64,000 nucleotides of DNA from Microbacterium sp. SCN 70-27 (GTDB taxonomy: Bacteria > Actinomycetota > Actinomycetes > Actinomycetales > Microbacteriaceae): the NCBI GenBank assembly GCA_001724425.1, contig MEEK01000018.1, forward strand, positions 28,126-92,125. Direction: 5' to 3'. Position 1 is the first letter of the stretch, and each line of letters starts with the position of its first letter. The notes below the pieces were generated by a model. It did not search any database, was not told the origin of the DNA, and was given only the letters and a program-made list of their open reading frames with translations. The position numbers and the translations under genes are program-made. Shown here in pieces: positions 10,387 through 14,784 of the stretch.

Positions 10387-11259
10387 ATGCGAAGGAACGA
10401 AGCGACCCCCGACGAGCACCGCTCGCCCTACGTACCGAACGATCAGGCGCACCCCTGGCGGCGCATGGTCTCGATCGGCGATTCGTTCACGGAGGGCATC
10501 GGCGACCCGATCCCGGGCACGGCGGACGAGCATCGAGGCTGGGCCGATCGCGTCGCTGAGGTCCTCGGCGCGCAGGTCGACGATTTCGCGTACGCGAACC
10601 TCGCCGTGCGCGGAAAGCTCATCGGTCAGATCGTCGCCGATCAGGTGGAACCCGCCCTCGCCCTCGCCCCCGACCTCATCACGTTCTCGGCGGGCGGCAA
10701 TGACGTCATCCGTCCCGGAGCCGACCCGGACGCGGTCGCCCAGCAGTTCGAGGACGCCGTTGCGCGGTTGAGCTCACAGGGAGCCACGGTCGTCGTCTTC
10801 ACGGGGATCGACACGAGCTTCACGCCGGTGTTCCGCGGCATCCGCGGGCGCGTCGCGATCTACAACGAGAACATCCGCGCGATCGCCGACCGATACGACG
10901 CGATCGTCGCCGACCAGTGGGCACTCAAAGAGGTCCAGGACCCGCGCTTCTTCGACGACGATCGTCTGCACTACAACGCCCTCGGCCACCACGAGGTCGC
11001 CCGCATGGTGCTGCGCACGCTCAACGTCCCGAACGACCTTCAGCCGATGCAGCCCGACCCGCTGCCGAACCTCACCTGGCGCGAGGCACGCACCAACGAC
11101 CTCGTCTGGGCGCGCACACACCTCGTGCCGTGGGTGCTGCGGCGCGTGCGTCACCAGTCGTCGGGCGACAACGTCACCGCAAAGCGCCCGGAAGCCCTCC
11201 CCGTCATCGTCGAGGCGCCGGCGCGGGATCGGACGGCCGGCCCCGGTCACGAGGCCTGA
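10387..11259 (+). CDS. SGNH/GDSL-family esterase
   Basis: 290 residues with no signal peptide. The SGNH blocks are visible: I with GDSFTEG (31-37, Ser33 nucleophile), III with GGND (102-105) and V with DRLH (191-194), completing the Ser-Asp-His triad. The enzyme hydrolyses an ester in the cytoplasm or on the inner face; the substrate is unknown. Its 40-residue N-terminal lead and the C-terminal tail after residue 235 are not catalytic. An AGGAGAG ribosome site lies at 10377-10383 and a TAGCCT -10 box at 10354-10359. Convergent, by one base, with the displaced methyltransferase tail. Confidence 0.88.
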   Translation: MRRNEATPDEHRSPYVPNDQAHPWRRMVSIGDSFTEGIGDPIPGTADEHRGWADRVAEVLGAQVDDFAYANLAVRGKLIGQIVADQVEPALALAPDLITFSAGGNDVIRPGADPDAVAQQFEDAVARLSSQGATVVVFTGIDTSFTPVFRGIRGRVAIYNENIRAIADRYDAIVADQWALKEVQDPRFFDDDRLHYNALGHHEVARMVLRTLNVPNDLQPMQPDPLPNLTWREARTNDLVWARTHLVPWVLRRVRHQSSGDNVTAKRPEALPVIVEAPARDRTAGPGHEA

Positions 11260-11682
11260 TCAGCGCAGCGCCCAGAGCGCGACCGCGGCGGCGGATGCCA
11301 CGTTGAGGGAATCCACCCCGCCCGCCATCGGGATCGTGACGACCGTGTCGGCCGCCTCCAGCGCCCGACGAGACAGTCCGTCGCCCTCCGTCCCGAGAAC
11401 GAGCGCGACCCGTTCGGGCCGATGCCCGGCGAACACGTCGAGCGGCACGGCCCCGTCGGCGAGTGCGAGGGCGGCGACATGCACTCCGGCCTCCTGCAGC
11501 TCGGCACGGCTTGCCCCCCACGGCCCACCGAGACCCTCGGGCATTCGCGTCCACGGCACCTGGAAAACGGTCCCCATGCTCACCCGGACGCTTCGCCGGT
11601 ACAGCGGATCGGCGCAACGCGGCGTCACGAGCACGGCGTCCGCACCGAGCCCCGCGGCAGCGCGGAAGGCGGCCCCGACGTT
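11260..11682 (-). pseudogene. Displaced native 3' half of the SPOUT RNA methyltransferase
   Basis: 140 codons that begin in mid-protein at N-V-G of SPOUT motif 1 and continue through motif 2 (LVLGTEGDGL) and motif 3 (IPMAGGVDSLNVA) to a stop at 11260. There is no N-terminal RNA-binding domain. About two thirds of the residues match the corresponding half of the intact gene at 13050-13844, by hand alignment. GC is host-like (43 of 60 bases at 11281-11340). It is the original 3' end, cut off by the island at 11683-13460. Joining 13461 to 11682 restores an in-frame 268-residue protein. An ATG at 11688 makes it look like a small gene, but that ATG is in the island. Confidence 0.85.
11672..11682 (+). 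repeat. Island boundary direct repeat, left (attL/attR-like)
   Basis: GCCCCGACGTT, identical to 13450-13460. Sequences left of both copies are homologous (methyltransferase 3' halves); sequences right of them are unrelated. Read on the minus strand it encodes N-V-G of SPOUT motif 1. Recombination between the copies would excise 1,778 bp and rebuild the native gene in frame. Confidence 0.75.
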
Positions 11683-11742
11683 ATGCACCTAGTCTGCCGC
11701 GTGTCGCTCACCGGGAAACGAGGATAGGCAAAAAGCGTCCTG

Positions 11743-11765
11743 TATTCTGCGGTCGTCGAATGGAG
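11743..11765 (+). promoter_or_regulatory. Possible promoter and ribosome site of the island operon
   Basis: A TATTCT -10-like hexamer lies at 11743-11748 and GGAG at 11762-11765, five bases before the ATG at 11771. The -35 region (around 11720) is weak. The surrounding bases 11683-11760 are AT-richer than the chromosome and encode nothing. Confidence 0.35.
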
Positions 11766-11770
11766 CCCAC

Positions 11771-12466
11771 ATGGTCGAGAGTACGTCCTATCCCAAGGTG
11801 TCATCGAATGCGTGGCGCGCTCTCAGAGCTCGCGCCGCCGCCGCGCCGTCGACCAAACTCACGCCCGCATCTGTAGCCGCCATCTTGAACATGTCGAGCC
11901 CCAAAAGCGCGGCCGATAATGTCGTGTACCCCATGCGTCGGCTCGGCCTGATCGACGAGGAAGGATCGTTGACTGAGCGCGGTCAGAAGTGGCGCGTCGA
12001 CGGCACATATGCCGCCGCTTGTGACGAGATCATCGACGAGATCTATCCGGCCGAGCTTTCGTCCCTCACCGACGATGAGGGAAAGCCCGACAAGGCGAGC
12101 GTCAAGACCTGGCTTCAGCACAAGGGACTGGGCGACTCGAATGCGTCGAACATGGCATCGACCTACGTGATGATTGCCGAACGTCAGGTGCCGGAAGCGC
12201 CGACTACCAATGGCCAGGCGAAGCCCCGTCCCAAAGTCGCCCCGGCTCCCAGTAGTAAGGCATCGCCCAGTAGATCAGCGGCCGCGAGTGAACGACTGCC
12301 CGCGGCGGAGTCAACCGGGCACCGCGAGCCGGTGGCGCCGATCCAAGGCACCGCGAATGGGCCCGAGGTGCGCCTCGACATCCAGATTCACATTCCGGCG
12401 ACCGCGACGGCCGATCAGATCGATCAGATCTTCGCGAGTATGGCCAAGCATCTCTACAAGAACTGA
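11771..12466 (+). CDS. DUF5343-family winged-helix protein of the island
   Basis: 231 residues. Residues 5-78 look like a winged helix (YPKVSSNAWRALRARA, then TPASVAAILNMS and a wing ending SLTERGQKWR), followed by a helical part to about 138. Residues 139-198 are a Pro/Ala/Ser-rich flexible linker. The last 33 residues form a separate conserved-looking tail, RLDIQIHIPATATADQIDQI plus FASMAKHLY. I assign DUF5343 from memory of this pattern. Members are found in variable, often defence-rich, DNA; function unknown. The stop overlaps the next start (TGATG at 12464-12468), so the pair is translationally coupled. It might bind DNA and regulate or restrain the second protein. Confidence 0.65.
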   Translation: MVESTSYPKVSSNAWRALRARAAAAPSTKLTPASVAAILNMSSPKSAADNVVYPMRRLGLIDEEGSLTERGQKWRVDGTYAAACDEIIDEIYPAELSSLTDDEGKPDKASVKTWLQHKGLGDSNASNMASTYVMIAERQVPEAPTTNGQAKPRPKVAPAPSSKASPSRSAAASERLPAAESTGHREPVAPIQGTANGPEVRLDIQIHIPATATADQIDQIFASMAKHLYKN

Positions 12467-13014
12467 TGGAGCGCAAAGCCTGGGCGGCCACTGTCGATCT
12501 TGCGCAAGCGATTCAAGCGGATCTCGTCGAGTTCTCTGTTCCCGATTCCGATCAGCAACGGGACAGCGGCACCGTAGTGGAGACGATCCTCGCTCCGGAA
12601 GCACCGTTGCTTGCTCAGTTCGATGCACGGATTCAGGACGAGGATCTTCGGACGGCGACGCGTACAAGATTTGCGTCTGGACACTATGCCGACGCCGTCG
12701 AGGCAGCGGTCAAGGCGTTGAACGAGCTTGTTCGTTCTCGCACCGGACGCACGGAGGACGGAGACGCTTTGATGACTATTGCGTTCTCACCGAATCAGCC
12801 TCTGTTGCGGATCGGCAAAGGAAAGAGCAAGTCAGACGAGAGCCGCCAGCGGGGCCACATGCAACTGTGCCAGGGAGTAGTTGGGGCTTGGAGGAATCCC
12901 CGCGCGCACAGCCTCACCGAGGACGACCCGGAACGGGCTCTGTCGATGATCGAGACGATCTCTGACCTGATGGACGTAACCCGTTCCGGCACCAAGACCC
13001 GAAAGCGAAAGTAG
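12466..13014 (+). CDS. Hypoth_Ymh (TIGR02391) family protein, HEPN-like
   Basis: 182 residues. The C-terminal domain (about 55-172) shows the family pattern: FASGHYADAVEAAVKALNEL at 69-88, then DALMTIAF, and W-R-N-P-R-A-H-S at 142-149 followed by an acidic DDPERAL helix. R143-x4-H148 matches the R-x4-6-H motif of HEPN ribonucleases, and the all-helical prediction fits that fold, but catalysis is inference. Residues 1-50 are a variable N-terminus; the C-terminus is a basic KTRKRK tail. It is coupled to the DUF5343 gene and convergent with the methyltransferase stop 35 bases away. A toxin or antiphage effector role is plausible, not shown. Confidence 0.65.
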   Translation: MERKAWAATVDLAQAIQADLVEFSVPDSDQQRDSGTVVETILAPEAPLLAQFDARIQDEDLRTATRTRFASGHYADAVEAAVKALNELVRSRTGRTEDGDALMTIAFSPNQPLLRIGKGKSKSDESRQRGHMQLCQGVVGAWRNPRAHSLTEDDPERALSMIETISDLMDVTRSGTKTRKRK

Positions 13015-13049
13015 AGCGGCGCCGAGGCTCGGATATGCCTTGATTTTGG

Positions 13050-13844
13050 TCAAGCCGACGTCGCCCACAGTGCCACCGCAGAAGCCGCCGCAACGTTCAG
13101 CGAGTCGACGCCCCCCGCCATGGGGATCTTCACTACCGTGTCTGCCGCGGCAATTGTGCGGCGCGATAGGCCATCCCCCTCAGAGCCCAGAATCCATGCC
13201 ACTCGGTCAGGGAGGGTTGTCGCAAAGCGGCTCAGATCAACCGCGTCAGGGGCAAGAGCAAGGGCCGCCGTGTGGAAACCAGCTGACTTCAACAGTTCGA
13301 TGTCGGCGGGCCAGGACTCTAGTCTGGCCCACGGTACCTGAAACACGGTTCCCATCGAGACCCGAATACTCCTCCGATAGAGCGGATCGGCGCATCCAGG
13401 AGTAACGAGAACGGCGTCGGCGCCTAGCGCCGCGCAGTTCCTCATGATTGCCCCGACGTTCGTGTGGTCGACGATGTCTTCGAGGACGAGCACGGTGCGC
13501 GCTCCCGCCACGACGTCTGCGACGCTCGGCAGGACCGGTCGGTGCATCGCCGCGAGGGCTCCGCGATGCACGGCGTACCCGGTGAGCTGCTCGGCGACCT
13601 CGTCGGAGACGAGATAGATCGGCGCATCGCCGGCGAGCGCTTCCGCATCGGGGAGCCACTTCTCCTGCACGAGCACCGACCGCGGTGTGTGACCTGCGGC
13701 GATGGCGCGGGCGAGGACCTTGGCGGATTCGGCGATGTAGAGACCTTCGGCCGGCTCGGTGCGGCGACGCAGGGCGACGTCGGTGAGGTCGCGGTAGTCC
13801 GACAGTCGGTCGTCGGACGGGTCGTCGATCCTCAGTACGGGCAC
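13050..13844 (-). CDS. TrmH/SpoU-family RNA 2'-O-methyltransferase, chimeric
   Basis: 264 residues from a GTG at 13844. Residues 1-110 are the L30e-like substrate-binding domain; 111-264 the SPOUT knot with motif 1 NVGAIMRN (from 129), motif 2 ILGSEGDGL and motif 3 IPMAGGVDSLNVA, all intact. It transfers methyl from SAM to a ribose in rRNA or tRNA; the target is not readable. The gene is a hybrid: codons 1-128 are host-like in GC (75% in a 60-base sample), while codons 129-264 come from the island (about 62%). The native second half lies at 11260-11682. Divergent from the sirtuin. Confidence 0.88.
   Translation of the reverse strand: MPVLRIDDPSDDRLSDYRDLTDVALRRRTEPAEGLYIAESAKVLARAIAAGHTPRSVLVQEKWLPDAEALAGDAPIYLVSDEVAEQLTGYAVHRGALAAMHRPVLPSVADVVAGARTVLVLEDIVDHTNVGAIMRNCAALGADAVLVTPGCADPLYRRSIRVSMGTVFQVPWARLESWPADIELLKSAGFHTAALALAPDAVDLSRFATTLPDRVAWILGSEGDGLSRRTIAAADTVVKIPMAGGVDSLNVAAASAVALWATSA
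13450..13460 (+). repeat. Island boundary direct repeat, right (attL/attR-like)
   Basis: GCCCCGACGTT, identical to 11672-11682. It is the join between the host 5' part (13461-13844) and the island 3' part (13050-13460) of the methyltransferase gene; GC drops across it. See 11683-13460. Confidence 0.75.
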
Positions 13845-13932
13845 CGTTCCATCGTGTCATGCACGTGCGACCCCCCTCACGTAACATCCCCGAAAACCGA
13901 CGGGCGTAGGCTCGGCGCGTGAGGGGGTGGCC

Positions 13933-14784
13933 ATGACGACGCTGCTGGATCTCGATGCGACGACAGCCGCCGGTGTCGGCCGCGCGATCGACGCGCTCGC
14001 GGGGCGCCGGATCGCCGTGCTCACGGGCGCCGGGGTGTCCACCGATTCGGGCATCCCCGACTACCGCGGCAAGGGCGCACCCACCCGCACGCCCATGACG
14101 GCGCAGCAGTTCCTCGGCAGCGACGCGGCGCGGCGCCGCTACTGGGTGGGCAGTCACCTCGGGTGGCGCTCATTCGCGGCATCCCACCCCAACGCCGGCC
14201 ACGAAGCGCTCGCCGAGCTCGAGCGGCAGGGCCTCGCGACGGGCGTCGTCACGCAGAACGTCGACGGACTGCACGTGCGCGCGGGGAGCCGCCGCGTCGT
14301 GGAGCTCCACGGCACGATGCGCCGCGTGCTGTGCGTGCACTGCGGCCAGGTGTTCGACCGGCGCGACCTCGCCGTGCGCGTCGAGCGCGACAACCCGTGG
14401 ATCACGGTGCCGGATGCCGTCGAGCTCGGCCCCGACGGCGACGTCCTGCCCGCCTCGAGCGACGGCTTCGTCGTGCCGGAGTGCAGCGTATGCGGCGGGA
14501 TGCTGAAGCCGGACGTCGTCTTCTTCGGCGAGTACATCCCGGTGACGAAATTCCAGGAGGCCGAGCAGCTGGTCGCCGCGAGCTCGGCGCTCCTGATCGC
14601 GGGCTCTTCGCTCGTCGTGAACTCCGGCATCCGCCTCCTCGAACGCGCACGGCGCCGGAAGCTCCCCGTCGTCATCGTCAACCGCGCCGAGACGCGCGGC
14701 GATCAGCGGGCGACCGTGAAGATCGATGCGGGCACGAGCGAGGTGCTGCAGGCGCTCGCCGCGGCCCTCCCCGCCGCGCGGTGA
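13933..14784 (+). CDS. NAD-dependent protein deacylase, sirtuin (Sir2)
   Basis: 283 residues from the ATG at 13933, six bases after an AGGGGG ribosome site (13922-13927); the in-frame GTG at 13927 lies inside that site and is unlikely. The NAD loop TGAGVSTDSGIPDYRG starts at 31, the catalytic motifs TQNVDGLH (107-114) and His126 in ELHGT follow, and four zinc Cys are at 134, 137, 184 and 187 (CVHC and CSVC). LIAGSSLVV completes the Rossmann core. It removes acyl groups from lysines using NAD, for example on acyl-CoA synthetases. A TAGGCT -10 box is at 13907-13912. Confidence 0.93.
   Translation: MTTLLDLDATTAAGVGRAIDALAGRRIAVLTGAGVSTDSGIPDYRGKGAPTRTPMTAQQFLGSDAARRRYWVGSHLGWRSFAASHPNAGHEALAELERQGLATGVVTQNVDGLHVRAGSRRVVELHGTMRRVLCVHCGQVFDRRDLAVRVERDNPWITVPDAVELGPDGDVLPASSDGFVVPECSVCGGMLKPDVVFFGEYIPVTKFQEAEQLVAASSALLIAGSSLVVNSGIRLLERARRRKLPVVIVNRAETRGDQRATVKIDAGTSEVLQALAAALPAAR

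Follow-up and report, generated by a model that had tools for sequence, protein, structure and literature searches.

A 1,778-bp island lies inside a SpoU/TrmH-family (SPOUT) methyltransferase gene of Microbacterium sp. SCN 70-27, in a stretch of 64,000 nucleotides of contig MEEK01000018.1 (hereafter the window). The native 5′ half of the gene continues in frame into a foreign 3′ half, and two cargo genes separate this hybrid from the displaced native tail. Along the window, a GDSL lipase gene is followed by the displaced SpoU tail (minus strand), cargo genes 1 and 2 (plus strand), the hybrid SpoU gene (minus strand) and a SIR2 gene. The island is very probably an integrative element that entered by site-specific recombination and a member of a Microbacteriaceae family of islands at one site, in which the cargo varies and is often defence-like and an active integrase is not recognisable. 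In the proposed mechanism, an AACGT core in conserved Asn-Val codons of the gene would recombine with the same core in the attachment site of the island. This site is followed by a foreign 3′ half. Insertion would thus swap the 3′ half, keep the frame and strand the native tail at the far end.

The layout described in the initial annotation was recovered. The SpoU 3′ halves to the left of both repeat copies are PF00588 (SpoU_methylase) matches, both on the minus strand, in the hybrid gene (13050-13844, E 6.8e-37) and in the tail (11260-11682, E 2.7e-29). Two cargo open reading frames (ORFs) on the plus strand lie between the repeats. The hybrid gene codes for 264 amino acids with a full SpoU domain. 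Its reading frame is restored by the replacement part of the island, and the product may be a working enzyme. Removal of the island joins 128 residues of the 5′ half in frame to 140 residues of the tail, giving the expected native enzyme of 268 residues. The GC content is 63.3% in the foreign 3′ half and 61.1% in the cargo stretch, compared with 74.0% in the tail, 70.1% in the 5′ half and 69.8% in the window, close to the earlier hand counts.

The 11-bp direct repeat at the island ends is present as annotated, but its length by itself is not evidence. The window contains 803 direct 11-mer repeats spaced 0.5-5 kb, so the repeat alone is not significant. The repeat of the island sits in conserved codons. 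What exceeds chance is that half of the gene is duplicated, that its two 3′ halves differ in ancestry and that the junction recurs in other genomes.

An intact single gene had been predicted for relatives and was found in 29/29 loci of the genus. The join of 5′ half and tail aligns with them at 73-84% identity over 255-270 columns; it is one Thr short in the alignment. The relatives had been selected by best match to the hybrid and hence without a bias towards the tail. The tail is closer to the native genes in all 29 (76-88% identity, foreign half 64-74%). Microbacterium sp. NIBRBAC000506063 (NZ_CP072877) has the uninterrupted gene between the same neighbours.

Phylogenetic trees were calculated separately for the two gene halves. 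The tree of 47 3′ halves covered 28 of the 29 natives and the gene of genome G076; L021 was dropped, its motif not being found by the script. It placed the window tail beside the natives L028, L019 and L026, in a supported group (95/97) that also contains the tail of G037. The replacement halves of the class B islands (see below) are in a strongly supported group (100/99) with the G076 gene and the own tail of G034. Those of the window genome (G000) and of G221 are not part of the main native group; this placement is weakly supported (84/63), and their long branches drew a program warning. In the tree of 33 5′ halves (27 of the 29 natives, without L020 and L021, whose motif the script did not find, and six of nine hybrids), G000 groups with L017 and G037, and the larger group also has L019 and L026. 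Because of these placements, the 5′ half and the tail are assigned one history and the foreign half another. A single vertical history of all parts, the alternative named in the initial annotation, was not seen: tail and replacement half differ, while the 5′ half has its place among the relatives of the tail. An old tandem duplication of the methyltransferase gene, with subsequent loss of one 5′ half and divergence, would account for two adjacent homologous 3′ halves. It is extremely improbable: the 29 fetched relatives have an empty site with a single gene and no tandem pair, and the tail nests with the relatives of the host, which the other half does not.

Further islands ending at the same site, as anticipated, were found in the genus and in other genera. 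The full layout on one contig is present in at least seven of 247 genus genomes (G000, G034, G037, G126, G135, G221 and G229). This number is a lower bound, as 41 genomes were inspected, chosen by eye for extra or half-length matches among the matches listed. Two more islands are in genomes of other genera, G550 and G498, giving nine islands with both junctions read. The family-level search covered 398 genomes with matches listed in part, and no occupancy rate was derived from it. The islands measure 1.8-14.8 kb from core to core. G126 and G135 are near copies, likewise G034 and G550, so seven insertions are counted as independent. All nine break the gene at the same codons. The 5′ half ends with CACAC(G/C/A)AACGT, and the tail starts with AACGT in seven islands, AATGT in G037 and AACGC in G221. 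Class A islands (G000, G221) have a seamless join. In class B islands, a linker precedes a second DHTNVG-type motif; 27-32 codons lie between the two motif copies (83 in G498).

Homologous recombination by transformation or gene conversion, with a donor gene copy beside the cargo and without a site-specific enzyme, is very improbable. In its favour are the homology of the two halves, both coding, and the position of the repeat in conserved codons. Against it, nine of nine junctions are at the same codons and the native tail is retained. In class B islands, AACGT is followed by a linker that has no equivalent in the gene, and the second motif copy comes after it. The identity steps at both cores of the G034/G550 pair, described below, also speak against it.

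Nine candidates were left out of the count. G026 and G042 were read as longer gene variants without an island, G092 looks like a repeated assembly stretch, G226 is a partial copy at a contig end and the frames of G055 are broken. G091 (L107, 3007-4940) has an element-type 3′ half, two foreign-looking ORFs (RhuM-like and Fic-like by eye) and then the GDSL gene, with no stranded tail. On contig 3 of G155 (166 kb), a truncated element-type 3′ half without a native 5′ half lies amid defence-like genes (L099:6552-6956), away from the intact native gene of this genome. G195 is split by contig ends: contigs L101 and L100 stop at the att core, one on each side, which would fit an assembly broken by an island, and the tail contig starts at AACGTCGG. 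G267 has a hybrid-looking SpoU gene with a linker (L161, 10048-11136, minus strand). No stranded tail was found nearby; perhaps an island has since been deleted.

In the cross-genus pair, sequence identity changes at both cores. G034 and G550 belong to different genera. With an IS30-like insertion of G550 set aside, the two islands match at 94% identity (96.5% in one block). Outside the island, gapped alignments yielded 69.0% identity for the 5′ halves, 70.2% for the tails and 64.8% for the GDSL side. Over 90 ungapped nucleotides on each side of the cores, identity steps from 37% to 99% at attL and from 99% to 72% at attR. The two island ends are 97.4% and 98.4% identical over 500 nt. The cargo consists of a type I restriction system and an Mrr-like protein. 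The large ORFs of both islands have no serine or tyrosine recombinase domain, and none of 33 large serine integrases matches them. Most simply, both copies would descend from one integrase-free island. The alignments indicate that an island without a recognisable integrase moved site-specifically between genera.

A short common core with differing flanking arms at attL and attR, a character of elements inserted by large serine integrases, is found at the window island. The sequence TAGGTGCAT is directly beside the tail-side core in both G000 and G221 despite unrelated cargo, with a contiguous identity of 9 nt. The pattern TAGGTGCATAACG, which was picked after seeing both, occurs once each in two of the 247 genus genomes, G000 and G221, both times at attR; its reversed form was found in three other genomes of this set. 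A second arm class is common to G037, G498, G135/G126 and G229, with 14-21 of 30 nt identical in register and 0-20 of 1,309 slid registers equally good. G034/G550 represent a third class. On an excised circle of the window island, the joined attP would read TAGGTGCAT-AACGTCGGGGC-AATCATG.

The ends were also considered as those of a DDE-type site-specific transposon with a 5-bp target duplication (AACGT) and the gene half as a passenger. Most class B islands have just five bases in common at both ends, and rve domains (DDE-type transposases) are present in two islands, G550 (IS30-like) and G126 (IS3-like). The islands have no transposase in common: that of G550 is an insertion which G034 lacks, and neither G000 nor G221 has one. 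In G000, the two ends have 11 bp in common, not five. Inverted terminal repeats were not noticed by eye, no computed search having been made. In every island the gene half is oriented to restore the reading frame. A transposon origin is very improbable.

The enzyme behind the proposed site-specific insertion was sought in islands, genomes and phages. That the window island lacks a recombinase holds as far as tested: it encodes no large serine recombinase (Resolvase plus Recombinase domains), the two cargo genes have no recombinase domain, and none of the 33 large serine integrases matches the island (E 1e-3). The same tblastn search of ten islands had a match to L200 only, a viral contig, and to none of the nine Microbacteriaceae islands. 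A search for Phage_integrase (PF00589) covered ten genomes. Matches are present in every one, none inside the seven genus islands according to coordinates (G550 and G498 were outside this search).

Viral sequences contain large serine integrases beside such half-genes. Viral contigs yielded nothing confirmed with a single half-gene as query and three loci with alignment A1. The IMG/VR contig 3300049165_000206 (L200) resembles the islands in the complete layout of 5′ half, linker, 3′ half, cargo and displaced tail, and differs in a large serine integrase at the tail end (attR). In the IMG/VR contig L201, a large serine integrase adjoins the tail. The Streptomyces phages Sitrop and Kamino have a large serine integrase beside a half-gene of the SpoU/TrmH family. 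Resolvase and Recombinase domains were found together in L200, L201 and Kamino. The type-A arm as a coding pattern had one match in viral contigs, on a phage-like contig, which was judged to be chance, and TAGGTGCATAACGTCGG had none. In the genus, 128 of 247 genomes have a PF07508 match and 75 have a homologue of the Kamino integrase (107 matches). The L201 integrase has a match in 11 of 248 genomes of the order. No integrase was seen in the islands or beside the gene in the genus loci examined, and the identity of the enzyme is therefore proposed by analogy. The best guess is a serine integrase which acts in trans or has since been lost.

Several observations weigh against a family of site-specific islands moved by such an enzyme. 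The enzyme class does not follow from a short core. G000 and G221 have an arm of only 9 nt in common; over 30 nt, 13 positions are identical and 47 of 1,309 slid registers are equally good. The arm common to G037, G498 and G229 may in part stem from the homologous resolvase-like gene adjoining it. In L200, for which the two junctions and no empty-site record were available, the break is about 6-7 bp downstream of the AACGT core; in L201 it is at the AACGT position, judged from attR alone. None of 42 fetched integrase loci, each 2.5-4.4 kb long, contains a SpoU half (30 of the 107 Kamino matches and 12 loci of the order). No integrase-bearing copy of the islands was seen in the genus, with other coordinates compared by eye only in part and SpoU matches listed in part. 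The G000 assembly is without a PF07508 match. Excision and integration are proposed from sequence.

Three sister islands encode a resolvase-like protein at the tail end. G229 (202 aa) and G498 (222 aa) have proteins with a Resolvase domain and a helix-turn-helix adjoining the tail, and G037 has a truncated homologue without a Pfam match. These proteins were aligned with solved DNA-invertases (Gin; 4m6f, 3uj3). The aligned serine is the nucleophile of the recombinase. It is replaced by Thr in G229 and by Gly in G498; a separate alignment placed Gly at this position in G037. The proteins may be regulators or site-binding proteins. The window island has no resolvase-like protein, and G000, G221, G034/G550 and G135/G126 are without a clear match to those of the sister islands.

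The islands could be decayed remnants which had their own large serine integrase at insertion and later lost the gene by deletion in place. This alternative deserves serious thought, at somewhat less than even chances. L200 and L201 retain an integrase at the attR end, and the resolvase-like genes of G229, G498 and, truncated, G037 occupy that same position with the catalytic serine replaced. The streptococcal cis-mobilisable elements (CIMEs) are described as decayed integrative and conjugative or integrative and mobilisable elements that keep their att sites (PMC7563491). The shared integrase-free island of G034 and G550, with its conserved ends, is a counterargument: any loss would most simply precede the transfer. 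The lack of integrase matches in the nine Microbacteriaceae islands and of clear resolvase-like matches in six of them also argues against decay in place. A bolder extension of the site-specific island family is offered tentatively, as possible rather than probable. The islands could be non-autonomous defence cassettes, consisting of attachment site, replacement half and cargo, which reach other genera with the help of serine integrases provided in trans by other elements. Some would encode a resolvase-fold protein without the catalytic serine that could bind the site and steer the helper integrase, and several attP arm classes would have converged on the same two codons.

The cargo of the window island is possibly for defence; this is a lead from family names, not a result. 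Cargo gene 1 matches the PADLOC model PDLC04589 (PDC-M34A) with E 2.1e-10 and 211 of 231 residues aligned, which qualifies as presence of M34A, and has no Pfam or NCBIfam match. In PADLOC, cargo gene 2 matches Aga_HEPN (1.5e-15) and PD-Lambda-3_B (8e-15). HEPN proteins have an Rx4-6H motif in an all-helical fold. RNPxAH is invariant in 21 aligned homologues of gene 2, and its AlphaFold2 model is mostly helical (predicted local distance difference test 85). Foldseek found nothing at E ≤ 0.001; the HEPN entry 2hsb ranked third with E 0.53. With gene 2 as query, 27 loci were found in genome contigs, and 18 of 299 family genomes have a match, the own genome included. The pair of gene 1 and gene 2 recurs in G321 with 23% and 28% identity, the only fetched locus with both. 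There, the pair adjoins a fragment that was read by eye as tyrosine-integrase-like.

Sister islands differ in cargo. Defence-related matches include PDC-S06 (G135), FRG/PDC-S15 and type I restriction genes (G498) and type I restriction (G034, G550). G221 encodes PIN_12 and a ParA-like protein with a weak PDC-M28B match. G037 has metabolic genes, and others are without family assignment. A protein family of 405-409 aa, about 70% identical between the G135/G126 and G229 islands (L094:16219-17448, L095:12583-13812, L093:5639-6856), has no Pfam or PADLOC match in the G229 copy. A small protein (ISSxFNxSASNFGNAAM) without a Pfam match is common to the G034/G550 and G135/G126 islands (L096:3192-3563, L094:13158-13754).

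Table 1. Features of the island locus in the window and resolvase-like ORFs of sister islands.
Feature	Position	Strand	Evidence or remark
Native 5′ half, codons 1-128 of the SpoU/TrmH-like gene	13461..13844	-	5′-half tree: with L017, G037; Pfam MRM3-like substrate-binding domain, E 4e-6
att core copy at the hybrid junction (attL), GCCCCGACGTT	13450..13460	.	Gene-strand AACGT is the part common to sister islands
Putative P′ arm of the attachment site of the element, within the foreign coding half	13421..13449	-	Compared with the G221 island: 35/40 nt from AAC, later blocks 20-30/40; weak, since the stretch codes
Foreign replacement 3′ half, continuing the frame of the 5′ half	13050..13449	-	PF00588; identity to natives; 3′-half tree
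Cargo gene 2, 182 aa, Hypoth_Ymh/TIGR02391, HEPN-like (RNPRAH)	12466..13014	+	PF09509, E 1e-28; TIGR02391, E 5.4e-23
Cargo gene 1, 231 aa, PADLOC PDC-M34A-like	11771..12466	+	PDLC04589, E 2.1e-10
Putative P arm of the attachment site of the element, gene-strand TAGGTGCAT	11683..11691	-	Identical stretch in the G221 island
att core copy on the side of the displaced tail (attR)	11672..11682	.	Second copy of the repeat
Displaced native 3′ tail, 140 codons and stop, without 5′ half	11260..11682	-	3′-half tree: with host natives L028, L019, L026; GC 74.0%
Flanking GDSL lipase gene, outside the island	10387..11259	+	PF13472; also adjoins sister islands and, in NZ_CP072877, the uninterrupted gene
Flanking SIR2 gene, outside the island	13927..14784	+	PF02146; neighbour kept in relatives
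Resolvase-like ORFs at the tail end of sister islands	L093:8535-9143; L162:18463-19131; L092:3074-3529	-; -; +	Serine replaced by Thr or Gly

A SPOUT target and the lack of a recombinase had been considered unusual. The second point stands, as no recombinase was recognised. The first does not: an RNA methyltransferase gene is also the target of the staphylococcal and enterococcal cassette chromosomes (SCC/ECC, in rlmH), a SpoU-like gene is a predicted target in Mycobacterium abscessus, and Streptomyces phages carry a half-gene of this family. RlmH is a SPOUT enzyme. According to PMC6222049, SCC/ECC are variable-cargo islands in rlmH, moved by the large serine recombinases CcrAB. They are defined by insertion in rlmH and ccr genes, whereas the window island is in a SpoU/TrmH-family gene, replaces half of it and carries no recombinase, its cargo being of other kinds. 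For M. abscessus attB-29, a prophage serine integrase is predicted to target a SpoU-like methyltransferase gene, a similar target to that of the window island (PMC10654092). There, integration is at the sixth codon, unlike in the window island, and the paper calls the reconstitution of expression unclear. Sitrop and Kamino are likewise mobile genomes bearing a 3′ half of the same gene family. They differ in being whole phages with their own large serine integrase, and their homology begins further 5′.

According to PMC7563491, CIMEs consist of cargo flanked by att sites, lack a functional recombinase and transfer genes, and measure 1.2-13 kb in the classical cases. The window island likewise keeps the att sites, and it has just two cargo genes, both free of recombinase and relaxase domains. 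It differs in its location inside a coding gene, half of which is replaced, and no tandem partner, such as the ICE with which a CIME moves by accretion, was noticed in the window. No integrase- or conjugation-bearing parent was found among the 42 fetched integrase loci and the family-level matches listed in part. A description of such islands was not recognised in the open-licence PubMed Central literature, in searches mostly without Microbacterium as a term. Islands that restore their target gene, serine integrases at RNA methyltransferase genes and remnants without an integrase (CIMEs) are known kinds; new are the combination and the cross-genus transfer.

In Microbacteriaceae, unrelated small islands, several of them with genes resembling defence genes, have accumulated at a single conserved coding site, and an integrase was recognised in none. 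They accommodate an attachment site within an open reading frame in two ways, by coding arms that join seamlessly or by a linker followed by a repeat of the motif. The defined attB can be used to find helper integrases, and a half-gene together with a stranded tail is a simple rule for finding further islands. The family provides a concrete, testable case of defence genes travelling on DNA that is seemingly unable to move itself.

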